NCBI RefSeq assembly: GCF_019048525.1
Contig: NZ_CP077369.1
Coordinates: 2,108,001-2,172,000, forward strand
From: Acinetobacter lwoffii
GTDB taxonomy: Bacteria > Pseudomonadota > Gammaproteobacteria > Pseudomonadales > Moraxellaceae
Direction of reading: 5' to 3'
Length of the DNA: 64,000 nt
This document shows positions 42,530-64,000 of the stretch, one piece after another. The notes beneath the pieces are model-generated. The model made no database searches. It was not told the DNA's origin and saw only the letters and a list, made by a program, of their open reading frames with translations. The position numbers and the translations under genes were made by a program. Every line of letters starts with the position of its first letter. The first letter of the stretch is position 1.

Positions 42530-42614
42530 GGGGACGTGGCGAAATTGGTAGACGCACTGGATTTAGGTTCCAGCGCCGCGAGGTGTGAGAGTTCGAGTCT
42601 CTCCGTCCCCACCA
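42530..42614 (+). tRNA. tRNA-Leu(TAG)
   Basis: 85 nt with encoded CCA. Acceptor GGGGACG/CGTCCCC, anticodon loop TTTAGGT in stem CTGGA/TCCAG, and a long class II variable arm. First of four identical copies in this locus. Confidence 0.96.
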
Positions 42615-42649
42615 ATCGATATTTGGGTAACTGGATATTGGGTGGAAGT

Positions 42650-42723
42650 AGAGGATTGGTGTAATGGTAGCATGACGGTCTCCAAAACCGTTCGTCAAGG
42701 TTCGAATCCTTGATCCTCTGCCA
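42650..42723 (+). tRNA. tRNA-Trp(CCA), atypical body
   Basis: 74 nt with encoded CCA. Acceptor AGAGGAT/ATCCTCT, anticodon stem ACGGT/ACCGT with loop CTCCAAA (anticodon CCA), T arm CAAGG-TTCGAAT-CCTTG, discriminator G. A1-T72, G73 and CCA are the known Trp identity elements. The D arm (GTGT-AATGGTA-GCAT, two wobble pairs) and 4-nt variable loop are unlike the usual proteobacterial tRNA-Trp. Confidence 0.85.
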
Positions 42724-42762
42724 AAGTTTGAAAGAAATCCAACGCTAAGTTGGTACCCTGAT

Positions 42763-42847
42763 GGGGACGTGGCGAAATTGGTAGACGCACTGGATTTAGG
42801 TTCCAGCGCCGCGAGGTGTGAGAGTTCGAGTCTCTCCGTCCCCACCA
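42763..42847 (+). tRNA. tRNA-Leu(TAG)
   Basis: Identical to the gene at 42530-42614. Third gene of the first block; a terminator follows directly. Confidence 0.96.
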
Positions 42848-42854
42848 TCATATT

Positions 42855-42882
42855 AAAGCAAGGCTAATGCCTTGCTTTTTTA
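42855..42882 (+). terminator. tRNA block terminator
   Basis: AAAGCAAGGC-N4-GCCTTGCTTTTTT, a strong hairpin 7 nt after the tRNA CCA. Confidence 0.9.
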
Positions 42883-43185
42883 TTGCCTGAAATTTGAGGG
42901 CGGTTTTTTTAGTACCAGATTTTTGCTGTCAAGATTGATGAACATCAATGCGTTCTGGGCTTAAATTATCTAGCGAATGATTGCAAGGGCAGGGCTTTAG
43001 TAAATTTCATTGTATTGCTGCAATAATTCATGCGATCTGTATATTCAATAATTTAAATGTTATATGGATCAGTCCCATGGTGTCTAACAATTTTATATAT
43101 TGGTCTAAATAGAGCAGTATTTGCTCAATAGGGAATTAACTGATTAATTTTTGATATAAAAGTATTTAGCTTTTTATAGAACTAC

Positions 43186-43212
43186 TTGTGAATCAGGTCT
43201 GATCGCTATAAT
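43186..43212 (+). promoter_or_regulatory. Promoter of tRNA-Leu(CAG)
   Basis: TTGTGA at 43186-43191, 15 bp, TATAAT at 43207-43212, then ATACACAGCCAT as in the other two units. The preceding 300 bp (42883-43185) holds nothing else I can identify. Confidence 0.7.
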
Positions 43213-43224
43213 ATACACAGCCAT

Positions 43225-43310
43225 GGGGATATGGCGGAATTGGTAGACGCACTGTGTTCAGGTCGCAGCGCCTTCTGGGCGTGAGAGTTCGAGTCTCTCT
43301 ATCCCCACCA
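43225..43310 (+). tRNA. tRNA-Leu(CAG)
   Basis: 86 nt with encoded CCA. Acceptor GGGGATA/TATCCCC, anticodon loop TTCAGGT in stem CTGTG/CGCAG, long variable arm. It is a separate unit between the two repeated blocks. Confidence 0.96.
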
Positions 43311-43317
43311 TCATATT

Positions 43318-43345
43318 AAAGCAAGGCGAGTGCCTTGCTTTTTTA
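43318..43345 (+). terminator. tRNA-Leu(CAG) terminator
   Basis: Same stem as the block terminators (AAAGCAAGGC/GCCTTGCTTTTTT) with a different loop. The interval 43346-43640 after it is A+T-rich, with nothing I can name. Confidence 0.9.
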
Positions 43346-43641
43346 TTGCCTGAAATTTGGCAAAGCCGTTGTATTTATGCTGTGTTGTATTCTGATTCCA
43401 TGCACTGCTTCAAAAATAATTTATGAATAATAGTTTCAGTATTTTGAATGCTCATGTTGATCAAGATTAGAAATTTATTTGAGTTTTAATTTGAAATGTT
43501 GGAATTGAATCGAAATGATTAAAAATAACGAATGGGCAGTCATATCTTCAAATCAATCAAATTTTCGACATAAATTTTATAAAAAATTAAACTAACTGTT
43601 TATTTTATAGCGGAATAGATTGTGATTGCTTGTAAAATCGC

Positions 43642-43668
43642 TTGTCAATGCCGGTCTATCTCTATAAT
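43642..43668 (+). promoter_or_regulatory. Promoter of second tRNA block
   Basis: TTGTCA at 43642-43647, 15 bp, TATAAT at 43663-43668. Confidence 0.7.
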
Positions 43669-43681
43669 ATACACAGCCATT

Positions 43682-43766
43682 GGGGACGTGGCGAAATTGG
43701 TAGACGCACTGGATTTAGGTTCCAGCGCCGCGAGGTGTGAGAGTTCGAGTCTCTCCGTCCCCACCA
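43682..43766 (+). tRNA. tRNA-Leu(TAG)
   Basis: Copy of the 42530 gene in the second block. Confidence 0.96.
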
Positions 43767-43801
43767 ATCGATATTTGGGTAACTGGATATTGGGTGGAAG
43801 T

Positions 43802-43875
43802 AGAGGATTGGTGTAATGGTAGCATGACGGTCTCCAAAACCGTTCGTCAAGGTTCGAATCCTTGATCCTCTGCCA
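43802..43875 (+). tRNA. tRNA-Trp(CCA), atypical body
   Basis: Identical to the gene at 42650-42723. Confidence 0.85.
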
Positions 43876-43914
43876 AAGTTTGAAAGAAATCCAACGCTAA
43901 GTTGGTACCCTGAT

Positions 43915-43999
43915 GGGGACGTGGCGAAATTGGTAGACGCACTGGATTTAGGTTCCAGCGCCGCGAGGTGTGAGAGTTCGAGTCTCTCCGTCCCCACCA
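43915..43999 (+). tRNA. tRNA-Leu(TAG)
   Basis: Fourth identical Leu(TAG) copy, last gene of the second block. Confidence 0.96.
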
Positions 44000-45244: not shown

Positions 45245-45272
45245 ATTTTGAATAATGCCCATTATATTAAAT
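45245..45272 (+). repeat. Degenerate dif-like site, distal end of cassette 1
   Basis: C-box-like ATTTTGAATAA (9 of 11 against ATTTCGTATAA), spacer TGCCCA, and D-box-like TTATATTAAAT at 45262-45272. It is inverted with respect to the canonical site at 45794-45821. An 18-nt palindrome, CCCATT-ATATTA-AATGGG (45258-45275), overlaps the D box. Confidence 0.55.
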
Positions 45273-45301
45273 GGGTGCAAATGAGAGAGGGTATCTAAAT
45301 C

Positions 45302-45703
45302 TCACTTGTTAAAAATAGACAGTATAGACAGTGAATCGTTCATGAAGTACATGGTTAAATATCCCAATATTACAAGCCATATCAGGATAATAATTCCTGC
45401 TGCCCAACGGTTTATAGGCCTTTCAACTAAGGTTTCTCCAAGAATTCTACAATCATCTACAATGTTTTGTGGGGTAAGCTTGATAACTAATAAAATACCT
45501 AAAGGTACAATAATAATATCGTCTAAATACCCAAGTACGGGAATAAAATCTGGAATTAAATCAATTGGTGAGAAGGCATAAGCAGCAATAATTAAAGCTA
45601 AAAACTTTACAGAATTGGGCGTTCGCTTGTCTTTTGCAATAAGCCAAACAACCAAGATGTCTTTTTTAATTGATTTAGCCCATTGCTTGATTCTTTGATA
45701 CAT
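45302..45703 (-). CDS. YkvA-family (DUF1232) membrane protein
   Basis: 133 residues. The DUF1232 core AYAFSPIDLIPDFIPVLGYLDDIIIVPLGI spans about 45-75 with hydrophobic helices around it, and a further helix near 105-120 (AAGIIILIWLVILGYLTMYF). Family function is not known. The gene lies alone between inverted dif-like sites, and its codons are richer in A and T than its neighbours'. Confidence 0.85.
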   Translation of the reverse strand: MYQRIKQWAKSIKKDILVVWLIAKDKRTPNSVKFLALIIAAYAFSPIDLIPDFIPVLGYLDDIIIVPLGILLVIKLTPQNIVDDCRILGETLVERPINRWAAGIIILIWLVILGYLTMYFMNDSLSILSIFNK

Positions 45704-45793
45704 AGCAAATATTAAAAGAACTATAGAGATTTAATCATAAGAGAGTTCTCTTAAAACAATATAGATTTTTATTATCCTATTACGATTTTCTAA

Positions 45794-45821
45794 AATTAAC
45801 ATAATACGCGTTATACGAAAT
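45794..45821 (-). repeat. Canonical dif-type XerC/XerD site
   Basis: On the minus strand: XerC box ATTTCGTATAA (45821-45811), spacer CGCGTA, XerD box TTATGTTAATT (45804-45794). These match the box sequences of Acinetobacter dif and plasmid dif sites as I know them. TTAGAAA continues the identity with the site at 62803 on the XerD side. Confidence 0.85.
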
Positions 45822-45865
45822 GCTATTTTTTATTTTATACAAATTATATGTTTAGCGTATAAGTG

Positions 45866-45897
45866 AAAGCCCAATTCAAGTAAATTGGGCTTTTTTA
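45866..45897 (+). terminator. Outward-facing terminator beside cassette 1
   Basis: AAAGCCCAATT-N6-AATTGGGCTTTTTT. The T run points away from the dif site, opposite to the cassette gene. The stem begins 45 nt beyond the XerC box; the same arrangement, at 44 nt, occurs beside the second cassette. The rest of the interval to 46207 is A+T-rich with no gene I can support. Confidence 0.8.
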
Positions 45898-46207
45898 TTC
45901 ACTTGTTAGGTTCCATGCTGATTATTTAAGCAATGTTCCACGAATTTCTCTAATTTAAATCAATATCATCCTGTTATTTATAAGTCATTATTTCATGTGT
46001 TGGAACTGAAATTGGTTTCTAAAAAAATAGAGGACTTGATTAATTATAAGAAAGCAAAAAATGGCACAGAAAGACATTTTTTAGATGGAGATTCAACTTA
46101 TTCCAATTTGTGCAAAATTTGTACGTGCCTTTCAATAACATTCTATGCATCGCAAATGACAAATAAGTAAGTCGGCTGAAGCATTGATCTTCAGCTTTGA
46201 ATCCGGT

Positions 46208-60733: not shown

Positions 60734-60751
60734 GCATAGGTATCTACACAT

Positions 60752-61984
60752 CTATGAGATACCTAATGCCATTGTGGCTATCTCATTGAGTTCATCTATT
60801 GAATATTCCGAGAGCAGTTGAAGAGTGTTCAGTAAAATCGAAAGCCCTGCCAATAAGGCAGGTGCACTTTCCAACCTACCTCTTTTCTGCTGCCGACCTG
60901 AAAGACGGGTGAGAAATACACGAATTTTCTGATGGTGTTCATCTTCAGAACGCTGGATTCGCCAAGTTAAAACACAAGCCATACAGCTAATCAGTAACCG
61001 CCTTAAAATGGCTTCAGGTCTGGTCTGAAGCCATGCTTCAATATCATGACCTGCCTGCTTGAGCAGCTTGAAATAGCATTCAATTGTCCAGCGCCAGTAA
61101 TACCAGGTCGTCATCTCTACCGTAGTAATCTCTGATGGAACATTGCTGATTAGTGACCATCTTGCGACGGTCTTATCCTGATCATCTTTCACTACGGCAA
61201 CAATTAATCTGGCTTCAATCGCACTCCCTGGCTGGGGAGCAACCCGTTGGCCTGAATCGTCATTTCTCTTCGGTTTTGCTGCACGTGTTATCCGGATAGC
61301 AGTTTCTCCCACATGCAACATATGCCGGTTTCCTTTATAGGCAATCGGCTGGACCTGCTGCGTTTCTACTCGTTCTGCGGCTTCTGCAACTTTGCATGTT
61401 TTGCCCTGATGCTCAATTCGATGGCCTTCTTTCGCCCGAATCAGCCATTTAAAACCCTGGCTGCTCATTTCCCTTAGGTGGGCAATGGAGTCACCTTCAC
61501 GATCAATGATATGAACACATGTTTTCTCAATGGGATATTGTTCAATCACTTTGATTTGTTCGGTAAGTGAATCTAGATGAGATTTGCGCCCAGCAGAGTG
61601 TTGACTGAATGTGGAATAGCAGCCTGAGGCATCTGATAGTGTCTGCGCCAGTGGCGCAATAGGTAGTCCCGAGGCTGCATCAACCAGCAGACTGCTTTGC
61701 AATTCATAGCCTGAATCATATTGATGGGTTCTTTGCAGGCGCTGAATTTTATGATGGTGTTTCACATACTGTAGCTGAGACCAGTCATGAACAATCAATG
61801 CATATTGATGCGGTGATGCCTTGATCTGTTCACATGCAAGATGTTCAATTGGCTGGTTTAACTGACTAAAAGAGATTTTGTCATTATTCAGGAATCGCCA
61901 GACCGCTTGTGTGGTTGCGAAACTCGACTTTTGGGCAGAAGCCAGGTCTTTGATTGCCGGAGCAAGTGAAGCAAGAGGGTTCAT
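60752..61984 (-). CDS. IS4-family DDE transposase
   Basis: 410 residues. The IS4 signature Y-(2)-R-(3)-E-(6)-K is present as YYWRWTIECYFKLLK, with candidate catalytic aspartates in IVHDWSQL and IIDREGDS. The N-terminus (TTQAVWRFLNNDKISF) resembles the transposase DNA-binding part of Tn5-like relatives. The frame is intact and ends 2 nt from the left inverted repeat. Confidence 0.93.
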   Translation of the reverse strand: MNPLASLAPAIKDLASAQKSSFATTQAVWRFLNNDKISFSQLNQPIEHLACEQIKASPHQYALIVHDWSQLQYVKHHHKIQRLQRTHQYDSGYELQSSLLVDAASGLPIAPLAQTLSDASGCYSTFSQHSAGRKSHLDSLTEQIKVIEQYPIEKTCVHIIDREGDSIAHLREMSSQGFKWLIRAKEGHRIEHQGKTCKVAEAAERVETQQVQPIAYKGNRHMLHVGETAIRITRAAKPKRNDDSGQRVAPQPGSAIEARLIVAVVKDDQDKTVARWSLISNVPSEITTVEMTTWYYWRWTIECYFKLLKQAGHDIEAWLQTRPEAILRRLLISCMACVLTWRIQRSEDEHHQKIRVFLTRLSGRQQKRGRLESAPALLAGLSILLNTLQLLSEYSIDELNEIATMALGIS

Positions 61985-62073: not shown

Positions 62074-62105
62074 GCAAAGTTCAGGAATTGTGTAGATACC
62101 TATGC

Positions 62106-62112
62106 CTTAAAG
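62106..62112 (+). repeat. Target-site duplication, right copy
   Basis: CTTAAAG next to the right inverted repeat, followed by GAGAGGG, the partner of CCCTCTC on the left side. Confidence 0.75.
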
Positions 62113-62228
62113 GAGAGGGCTTTCATCTATCGAATAGAAATGAAAATTTAAAGACTTCCTCCAGTATTCTTGCGCTATATATGGCTCAGGCTTAGGGGGA
62201 ATTACATTTAAAATTAGAGATCATTTTC

Positions 62229-62645
62229 ATGCAAACCAAACATTATTTGACTTTAAGCGATGCGGAATTTTTATTAGATCAAGCCCATCAATATGCCATT
62301 CAGAACAGTTTTAATGTCAGTATTGCAGTCGTAGATGAAACGGGTAATTTGCTTGCGATGAAGCGTATGGATGGTGCAGCACCGATGACTGCAAATCTGG
62401 CCGTCGAAAAGGCTAAATGTTCAGCTATGAGTCGCCATCCCTCCAAACTGTTTGAGGATATTATCAAAGGCGGACAGATGGGTTTTCTGACCATGGAAAC
62501 TTTCTCAGGAATGTTGGAAGGTGGTGAACCGATTCTGTATCAAGGCCAGCTCGTCGGTGCGATGGGTGTGTCGGGTGTGAAGTCGTTTGAAGATGCGGAG
62601 ATTGCACAGGTAGCCATTGAGAAATTTTTGGCTAAGCAAAGCTAA
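62229..62645 (+). CDS. GlcG/HbpS-family protein
   Basis: 138 residues. SIAVVDETGNLLAMKRMDGA, ANLAVEKAKCSAM and LVGAMGVSGV are the family pattern (formerly DUF336). Members include GlcG of glycolate operons and the haem-binding HbpS. Neither context is present here, so function is open. Confidence 0.88.
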   Translation: MQTKHYLTLSDAEFLLDQAHQYAIQNSFNVSIAVVDETGNLLAMKRMDGAAPMTANLAVEKAKCSAMSRHPSKLFEDIIKGGQMGFLTMETFSGMLEGGEPILYQGQLVGAMGVSGVKSFEDAEIAQVAIEKFLAKQS

Positions 62646-62730
62646 TCCAAAATAGAAATTGATCAGCTTAATTTAATAAAATCATTCAAAGTTGTACCAA
62701 AATGAAGCGTGGAACGTGAAATATCAACTA

Positions 62731-62760
62731 AAAAGCCCAATCGCTAATGAGTGGGCTTGT
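62731..62760 (-). terminator. Outward-facing hairpin beside cassette 2
   Basis: AAGCCCA at 62733-62739 pairs with TGGGCTT at 62752-62758. On the minus strand the hairpin ends in TTTTT, so it points away from the dif site, opposite to the cassette gene. It stands 44 nt from the XerC box, matching cassette 1. Confidence 0.65.
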
Positions 62761-62802
62761 CTATATACAATAAAGTTATAATTTAAAAAGGAAATCAAAA
62801 GA

Positions 62803-62830
62803 ATTTCGTATAACGTGTATTATGTTAATT
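62803..62830 (+). repeat. Canonical dif-type XerC/XerD site
   Basis: XerC box ATTTCGTATAA (62803-62813), spacer CGTGTA, XerD box TTATGTTAATT (62820-62830). Both boxes are identical to those at 45794-45821; the spacers differ by one base. Orientation is opposite to that site. Confidence 0.85.
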
Positions 62831-62865
62831 TTAGAAATAATTAAAAGTTTGGAAATACTAGTGAA

Positions 62866-63168
62866 ATGCAACTTATAGAAATAGAGCCTTATTTTTGGGA
62901 ACTATATGAGGATAGCGAAAATATATACCTCAATGTTTGTATAAATATGAGTGCAGTTTCTTGGGCGAAAACTATCTGCCTAGATAAACAAACGATTCAG
63001 CAATATCAGACTCAAGGAAAAGGTTTTATTGATGACTTAGCTAAAAGAATTGAAAGCAGCCAATTTAGAAAAGATTATGAAAGATTTTATTCATTTCCAG
63101 ATGCCTCCGCAGAACAAAAAGAGGGAATGCTTCTAGCATTTAATGAATATAGGGCTAAGCAAAATTAA
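62866..63168 (+). CDS. Hypothetical protein carried by the dif-like cassette
   Basis: 100 residues, MQLIEIEPYFWELYEDSENIY at the start and a helical, charged C-terminus ending EYRAKQN. No family recognised. Codons are more A+T-rich than in flanking genes. It starts 35 nt after the XerD box and its stop is one base before the 3' palindrome. GGAAAT lies upstream of the ATG. Possible roles (small immunity, antitoxin or anti-phage protein) are guesses from the setting only. Confidence 0.7.
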   Translation: MQLIEIEPYFWELYEDSENIYLNVCINMSAVSWAKTICLDKQTIQQYQTQGKGFIDDLAKRIESSQFRKDYERFYSFPDASAEQKEGMLLAFNEYRAKQN

Positions 63169-63172
63169 AGCC

Positions 63173-63200
63173 ATTTAATATAATGGCGATGATACGAAAT
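63173..63200 (-). repeat. Degenerate dif-like site, distal end of cassette 2
   Basis: On the minus strand: C-box-like ATTTCGTATCA (10 of 11), spacer TCGCCA, D-box-like TTATATTAAAT, the same D variant as at 45262. The palindrome GCCATT-TAATAT-AATGGC (63170-63187) overlaps it. Confidence 0.55.
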
Positions 63201-63253
63201 TAGAACAATAAACCTCTGTGAAATCAAAGTGTTTTTCAAATCGATGCTAAACT

Positions 63254-63284
63254 AAAATAGCATGAATCATCATGCTATTTTGTA
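63254..63284. terminator. Strong hairpin before the last gene
   Basis: Perfect 12-bp stem AAAATAGCATGA-ATCA-TCATGCTATTTT, with A and T runs at its two ends. It probably stops transcription leaving the cassette side. Confidence 0.75.
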
Positions 63285-63300
63285 TTTATAAGAGCCTCCC

Positions 63301-64000
63301 ATGCTGTACCCCATCCCTAAAAAAATCCAACTTGCTCCATCCCAAGCCAAATGGCAGCTTGCATCAAATGAATCTGTTTTGGTTTTAGTGGGATTACAAA
63401 ATTTAAGGATGATGGTAGGCATACAAGAAAGCGACCTAATGAGTCATCTGATCCAGATCAGCAATAAAGCCAAAGCACTCGATATTCCGATTGTTGACTT
63501 ATATGGTGATGACCTGATGCAAGGCATGCAGCAATTGGGAGAATATGCCTCAACGCATCCGCAACTAATTTTTGCCGGTCAGGTCACGCCAATGCTGAAA
63601 CAGATTTTGCCGCATCTGATGAGTGTGACGGATCAAATCGGTGTGGTCGATGACGCCATTTTAGTGGCGAATCAAGATCAGCATATTCAATGGATCGAAA
63701 ATATTTCGGCACAGGGCATACATCACTTAAATACTTATAGCCTGACTCGCTTATGGGATTTAAGCGCGCCGTCAGAATATGTATTGTCGACCAAAGGCAT
63801 TATGTTGGCTGTCGCAGAACAGCTGGATATGGATGCCTTGGAAATTGATCCCTATGTCGATTTAAAAAATTATGGTCTGGATTCGGTAGCGGTGGTGAGT
63901 CTAGTCGGTATATGGCGTGCGCATGGTGCCAATATCCGTTATGAAGATGTGCTAAAGCATCCGTCTTTGCATGAATTGGCAGGCTTCATTTTACAATCCT
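63301..64000 (+). CDS. Isochorismatase-like protein with carrier domain (EntB/BasF-like, runs off the end)
   Basis: At least 233 residues from the ATG at 63301. The N-terminal 160 residues follow the isochorismatase fold (IPKKIQLAP at the start, then ESVLVLVGLQN). The catalytic Asp that normally precedes the Met/Leu-Gln is glycine (G31). The C-terminal part is a phosphopantetheine carrier domain with LKNYGLDSVAVV, attachment Ser195. The layout is that of siderophore aryl-carrier proteins, here perhaps carrying without hydrolysing. Downstream biosynthetic genes would lie outside the window. Confidence 0.8.
   Translation, partial: MLYPIPKKIQLAPSQAKWQLASNESVLVLVGLQNLRMMVGIQESDLMSHLIQISNKAKALDIPIVDLYGDDLMQGMQQLGEYASTHPQLIFAGQVTPMLKQILPHLMSVTDQIGVVDDAILVANQDQHIQWIENISAQGIHHLNTYSLTRLWDLSAPSEYVLSTKGIMLAVAEQLDMDALEIDPYVDLKNYGLDSVAVVSLVGIWRAHGANIRYEDVLKHPSLHELAGFILQS

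Follow-up and report, generated by a model that had tools for sequence, protein, structure and literature searches.

The locus analyzed here raised the question of whether a small gene of Acinetobacter lwoffii, enclosed by two inverted Xer recombination sites, belongs to an exchangeable cassette and, if so, of which kind. The window, i.e., the whole stretch of 64,000 nucleotides that was analyzed, corresponds to C1:2108001-2172000 of a 3.47-Mb genome in 9 contigs (G000; G, L and C numbers denote genomes, loci and contigs). A previous sequence-only reading had described positions 62803 to 63200 as the second of two cassettes sharing one architecture and differing in their gene. It is considered likely, with good confidence, that this element represents one D-type dif module, located in a chromosomal slot that is conserved and the contents of which would be swapped through plasmid-chromosome cointegrates formed by XerCD. 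The features are collected in Table 1, and published work is cited from excerpts of open-licence PMC articles.

Table 1. Features of the two cassettes and of the surrounding slot, in window positions.
Feature	Position	Strand	Observation
D-type dif module, XerD boxes inside, cargo P0001	62803..63200	+	398 bp; site pattern scan
C/D site, XerC ATTTCGTATAA, spacer CGTGTA, XerD TTATGTTAATT	62803..62830	+	perfect 28-bp site, 0 mismatches, expected 0.00
Inverted D/C site, XerC ATTTCGTATCA, spacer TCGCCA, XerD TTATATTAAAT	63173..63200	-	remnant test 0/500 shuffles
Cargo CDS P0001, 100 aa	62866..63168	+	4 nt from stop to inverted site
Left flanking gene of slot, HbpS-like (PF03928)	62229..62645	+	Pfam match
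Right flanking gene of slot, ATG at 63301, runs past window end	63301..64000	+	sequence; adjoins slot in relatives
Left arm, homologous to OrfX-side end of Rep_3/OrfX plasmid backbone	62646..62802	+	106/161 positions match own small contig C6 (0/300 shuffles)
First cassette, DUF1232 (PF06803) cargo	45245..45821	-	architecture as second cassette
First cassette C/D site, spacer CGCGTA	45794..45821	-	same two boxes as 62803-62830
First cassette DUF1232 CDS	45302..45703	-	Pfam
First cassette inverted far site, variant D box TTATATTAAAT	45245..45272	+	site scan
Outer arm of first cassette, resembling plasmid OrfX-side end	45822..46103	-	alignments to C6, pAb244_7 and C7

Sites were scanned as an 11-6-11 XerC/spacer/XerD pattern of 28 bp at ≤3 mismatches. 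Three were found in the 64-kb window. In 100 shuffles the mean was 0.00 and the largest count 0, so chance rarely yields sites of this kind, and the refuting condition named earlier, equivalent site spacing around random genes, fails. The two sites of the module are inversely oriented with their XerD boxes inside, the arrangement of a D-type dif module. As had been noticed before, the boxes of the left site are those of the first cassette, and an inverted degenerate site lies within 5 nt of the stop. The right site has 3 mismatches to the scan pattern, or 2 if either XerD end is permitted, and with changes in both boxes it may be weak or dead. These mismatches would favor the idea that dif-like sequences surround an ordinary gene by chance. 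This idea is, however, already refuted by the shuffles, by reversed-pattern controls with 0 sites in all of the 30 genomes listed, by plasmid copies in which the module has the same length and its sites the same positions (see below), and by an IS that ends 5 bp outside the XerC boxes of the slot in G048 and G053, as read at the junctions. Insertion 5 bp from XerC boxes is the published habit of IS1202-family elements (PMC10132070), which target such sites and do not belong to the module.

The variant D box TTATATTAAAT, presented earlier as common to both cassettes, is indeed present in the two of them and also in some further slot genomes. In the P0001-bearing relatives G048, G053 and G113, as on the plasmids that were fetched, the far D box is, however, the ordinary TTATGTTAAAT, and therefore the variant is no hallmark of the element. 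A circle joining 63200 to 62803, which had been put forward as a junction to look for, is not expected from two inverted sites with unlike spacers; for the same reason, neither excision nor inversion of the module would be predicted to occur unaided. A XerD gene above its cut-off is present in the genome. Rfam models at gathering scores matched tRNAs alone in the window; seven tRNA genes, with two similar runs of three among them, lie at 42530-43996. Close to the slot, a transposase-like ORF (DDE_Tnp_1) occupies 60752-61984; this stretch is absent from G053, in which window position 60734 is joined straight to ~62105.

No match to P0001 was obtained in Pfam, NCBIfam, PADLOC or PHROGs, and a PDB profile search gave one match with an E of 0.23. 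Most of the cargos scanned also lacked a Pfam family above cut-off, in line with the earlier view that the cargo is unrecognizable; the phrase "reservoir of unknown small functions" remains a description. An alignment search yielded 237 family members, and the organism names among the best 120 of 237 were Acinetobacter, bar one Pseudomonadota MAG. When plasmids and chromosomes were searched, as had been proposed, P0001 turned up in 6 of the 72,556 plasmid records. These six come from Acinetobacter, and the protein identity is ~88% (none above ~89% in these records), one copy being cut by an IS. Relatives were present in 70 of the 175 genus genomes of the comparison set (one genome per species), and the protein was 100% identical in four, own genome included. 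Five plasmid loci were fetched: in L031, L032 and L034 the module measured 398 bp with both sites at identical relative positions, and in L033 an IS had taken its left end. The whole module was 91% identical to the plasmid copies at the DNA level, and it also recurs, bounded by sites, in G048, G053 and G113. P0001 and the pMRA plasmid copy differed at 24 positions (7, 8 and 9 by codon position; dN 0.059, dS 0.218), which suggests, rather than proves, selection on the protein, and P0001 is probably a real protein. An immunity function was considered owing to an Imm63 neighbor on one plasmid and was dropped, as relatives of P0001 lie at unrelated chromosomal places and PADLOC gave no match. In L047, L055, L056, L059 and L063, distant relatives of P0001 adjoin putative ATP synthase genes (as read).

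The DNA of 62100-63900 matched 168 of the 175 genus genomes. A sample of 40 stretches was drawn from the matches listed, both flanking genes being present in 38. Where these genes lay ≥300 bp apart, which was the case at 36 loci counting the own one, a remnant test was applied, in which a site was called at p ≤0.002. The left site was called in 21 of the 36, the right site in 18 and both in 14; G048, the good left site of which is shifted by the IS, brings the two-site loci to 15 of 36. Seven loci had the left site alone, three the right site alone, and eleven neither. In the two-site slots the left site lies +123 to +171 from the left gene, mostly at +156 to +158, and the right site -89 to -159 from the right gene, mostly at -102/-103, these right-hand distances being 2 bp too long because the third base of the ATG was taken as the gene start at every locus. 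Several of the 11 site-less loci hold other genes between the flanking genes, so the interval also receives inserts by other routes, and in G105, G157 and G020 the flanking genes are just 5-24 bp apart.

The contents of this slot differ among the loci with recognizable sites. P0001 is carried by G000, G048 and G113, and by G053, in which the contig ends just beyond the module. A 229-aa gene was found in G054, a 276-aa gene in G050, G051, G052, G055 and G173 (broken in G050 and G055), genes of 145 and 173 aa in G170, of 198 aa in G039, of 158 and 77 aa in G127, of 110 aa in G028 and of 148 aa in G101. G083 holds putative transposase-like ORFs (as read), and G106 has ~4.8 kb, with its right site located elsewhere. 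The 15 two-site loci carry nine different contents; in pairwise blastn of these, 35 of the 36 pairs had no similarity and one had a 22-bp match. The earlier expectation of different cargo within the same Xer frame was thus borne out even at the same chromosomal place. At G042:C5:335800-338300 (L109), the left site of the slot has decayed, and the gene inside, of 234 aa, matches P0001 distantly (27%).

Cargo and flanks were then compared between genomes. Between G000 and G113, 340 of the 342 bases of the module interior are identical, whereas the left and right genes reach 79.6% and 72.6%; the best changepoints, 62804 and 63178, both fall within the sites, with 99.5% identity inside and 70.4% outside. 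Likewise, the 276-aa cargo of G052 and G173 is 94.8% identical against 80.5% and 76.7% for the flanking genes, its left changepoint lying ~120 bp inward of the site. The reverse is seen in the close relative G054, in which flanks ~95% and 91% identical to those of the window enclose an unrelated cargo between good sites; the gene is therefore not fixed at this place among close relatives, whereas fixation would have refuted the sequence-only reading. One locus thus holds different cargos with breakpoints in the sites. Cargo and flanks have separate histories, and slow vertical inheritance does not produce such discordance.

These data bear on two other explanations. Acinetobacter species are competent, and natural transformation with homologous recombination could have swapped the contents, the dif sites serving as short conserved anchors or being leftovers. 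The match of slot-region DNA across most of the genus and the several relatives with other genes and unrecognizable sites agree with it. It is nevertheless regarded as rather unlikely, since the fall from 99.5% to ~70% identity within both 28-bp sites leaves almost no homologous anchor, the module ends keep one polarity, and the compared plasmids resemble the window beyond the module in site and arm sequence alone. Under the second explanation, the slot goes back to one capture of a plasmid fragment together with its module, inherited ever since, and later unrelated insertions and decay have produced the slot variation; the degenerate right site would suit it. The same cargo in distant lineages, with an identity far above that of the flanks, and the other cargo of G054 speak against it, and for the present slot it appears very unlikely.

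The plasmid pool was searched with six slot cargos, and 4 of the 6, P0001 among them, recurred on Acinetobacter plasmids with dif sites alongside. The 276-aa cargo is present on pA2584 (92%), where a C/D site stands just ahead of it and repM and a DNA-binding gene (orfX by position) precede it. The 229-aa cargo was found on 11 plasmid records (41-90%), with dif sites in all three of the loci fetched, at the gene end in L151, and the 158-aa cargo on ten A. baumannii plasmids (84%), both sites being present in the fetched pAb244_7. The 173-aa cargo had plasmid matches at ≤40% alone, and the 198-aa cargo had no plasmid match in this search.

Additionally, sites were examined genome-wide. The own genome holds 30 sites at ≤3 mismatches, five on the chromosome contig and 25 on other contigs. 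The spacer of the main dif has been given as tgtata (PMC10132070), and by this spacer the main dif is G000:C1:2389296, 218 kb from the module; site 2561894 (GGTGTA) was considered for this role and rejected in its favor. A TGTATA-spacer site was listed in 27 of the 30 genomes (not in G016, G141 and G148; G130 has a second, degenerate one). Elements of the IMEX type integrate at the main dif, which is not the location of the module. Clustering of slots near the terminus was considered, the slot lying 196-289 kb from the main dif in nine genomes compared, and is not claimed, as extra sites lie far from the main dif in other species, e.g., G067, G068 and G158. The XerD-box end was linked to the spacer end among the 30 own sites: 14 combined GTA with AATT, 0 had GTA but a different box end, 1 had AATT but a different spacer, and 15 were others (Fisher P 2e-7). 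In the slots listed, every left site found carried the AATT end (GATT in G101) and every right site the AAAT end, except that the right D box of G173 has diverged. A constant polarity of this kind would be predicted if exchange is spacer-matched at both ends. That the central nucleotides of Acinetobacter dif sites fall into two clusters had already been reported (PMC6449649).

The module has chromosome on both sides, with recognizable C-module DNA in the left arm only. This arm shows GTGGAAC at 62709, a hairpin (AAAGCCCA...TGGGCTT) and an AT-rich stretch reaching the XerC box. On retesting, its 157 bp scored against C6 at 0/400 shuffles, and more weakly against contig C7 (11/300); the slot arms of seven relatives gave 0/400 against C6 in all seven and 5 to 81 of 200 against C7. 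The C6 arm was found on 17 of the 22 GTA-type sites tested (C6's own site counted). Chromosomal sites in this test were those of the own genome plus eight loci from seven other genomes. Among the chromosomal GTA-type sites the arm was present at 0/400 in 10 of 11, the eleventh (L164) having an IS between arm and site, and it was found at 0 of the 9 other chromosomal sites, main dif included. Four of the 14 own GTA-type sites lacked it, all on other contigs, and 5 of the 14 non-GTA sites on other contigs gave weak scores. In the slot, all 21 loci with a left site carried the C6 arm (0/400; G048 left out, its IS lying in between), as did 4 of the 14 without one (G160, G002, G019 and G072). The right arm had no plasmid likeness at the loci tested. 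The arm is thus homologous to a plasmid backbone end, from which we infer its capture by the chromosome. Both 62709-62802 and 45822-45941 contain the conserved arm, i.e., the GTGGAAC motif, the hairpin and a stretch like TATGATTTATATnnAATAAAA, and this arm beside the XerC boxes may possibly act as an accessory element.

The first cassette offers a different picture. Its arm matched C6 at 210/285, pAb244_7 at 199/289 and C7 at 132/188 positions (0/300 shuffles each). The far part (~46040-46103) aligned with the last orfX codons of C7, decayed and with stops, and a protein-level search for OrfX in it gave nothing significant (best E 4.3). The same insert is carried by eight close relatives, and in G138, G162 and G163 the flanking genes lie 1-12 bp apart instead. 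No exchange is seen here, which, with the decayed arm, fits a single capture inherited since. At the third chromosomal site, 2561894, the inner sequence is unrelated in G000, G048 and G050, and the outer flanks contain 89-96% identical stretches; the slot at 62803-63200 is therefore not unique. This third chromosomal slot, represented by G000:C1:2560000-2564500 (L162), L163, L164 and L167, has a GTA-type site with inner sequence differing among close relatives.

For the preferred reading, exchange of a single D module by XerCD, the following course is proposed. The chromosome would have captured one end of a Rep_3/OrfX plasmid backbone, that on the OrfX side, and would thereafter act as the C module of a plasmid. 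Once such a plasmid is in the cell, XerCD would recombine a matched pair of the left type (xxxGTA) and thereby fuse the plasmid with the chromosome; a matched pair of the right type (xxxCCA) would then resolve the fusion, so that one D module replaces another in a fixed orientation. The distinct spacer of the main dif, TGTATA, may separate this exchange from the resolution of dimers. The identity of the sites, the conservation of the slot, the replacement of cargo and the polarity of the ends were observed, and the two Xer steps are inferred from the published plasmid model, in which a cointegrate is formed at one matched pair and resolved at the other (PMC13141974; PMC11705084). In PMC11705084, GGTGTA and T/CCGCCA spacer pairs formed cointegrates, and two T/CCGCCA sites recombined without FtsK; the slot spacers fit both classes, the left being GGTGTA-like and the right, TCGCCA, falling within T/CCGCCA. 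Against the proposal, the excerpts of this 2025 laboratory study report cointegrates and no exchange of the genes between sites. Recombination by homology at the short sites is also possible. Further points against the proposal are the altered boxes of the right site, the lack of a P0001 copy beyond ~89% protein identity in the plasmid records, the 11 loci with neither site recognizable, the inward left changepoint of the 276-aa cargo, the weak C7 scores of the slot arms, the own GTA-type sites without the arm, the non-GTA sites scoring weakly for it, and the first cassette with its unexchanged insert. More tentatively, and at somewhat less than even odds, several docking slots, each with a captured Rep_3/OrfX end and a GTA-type C/D site, would swap D modules by a natural recombinase-mediated cassette exchange, with the ~100-bp arm as an accessory and TGTATA insulating dimer resolution.

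The element itself is of a known kind and no new cassette system, as dif/pdif modules have been described already, on chromosomes included; the new part is the conserved, plasmid-derived, cargo-swapping chromosomal slot. The D modules of Acinetobacter Rep_3/OrfX plasmids have the same inverse XerC-spacer-XerD sites with XerD boxes inside, small cargo and spacer classes; they alternate with C modules, and the published model has one module replaced by another through a cointegrate (PMC13141974). By contrast, the chromosome here would take the C-module part, and replacement is observed between species at a conserved slot. PMC6449649 and PMC12907356 describe additional dif sites and modules of Acinetobacter chromosomes, nearer to pdif than to the main dif; their excerpts deal with sites, individual modules or a resistance island, whereas an orthologous slot is compared across species here. 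The XerCD cointegrates of A. baumannii plasmids (PMC11705084) were likewise spacer-matched, their GGTGTA and T/CCGCCA pairs corresponding to the two ends of the slot; unlike the slot, they involved laboratory plasmids and the flanked genes were not exchanged. In the excerpts of open-licence PMC literature, no report was found of modules exchanged at an orthologous slot of the chromosome, nor of chromosomal dif sites accompanied by arms of a plasmid backbone, bar IS-borne plasmid fragments (PMC10132070).

Integron gene cassettes have one attC site per gene and an adjacent integrase gene. They resemble the slot contents in placing different small genes in one frame; here, two inverted Xer sites argue against an integron gene cassette, and the host XerCD would stand in for the integrase.

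Single dif module exchange has been proposed for plasmids from comparisons (PMC13141974) and was not seen in the excerpts of PMC11705084. Swapped cargo at an orthologous slot of the chromosome records such exchange in nature, and the model becomes directly testable. The origin of the extra chromosomal dif sites is left open in the excerpts of PMC6449649; the plasmid arm offers an answer, suggesting that these sites are ends of captured Rep_3/OrfX plasmids. The slot also shows how genes of the plasmid pool, a cargo pool of mostly unstudied small genes, can enter the chromosome although they bring no recombinase with them.
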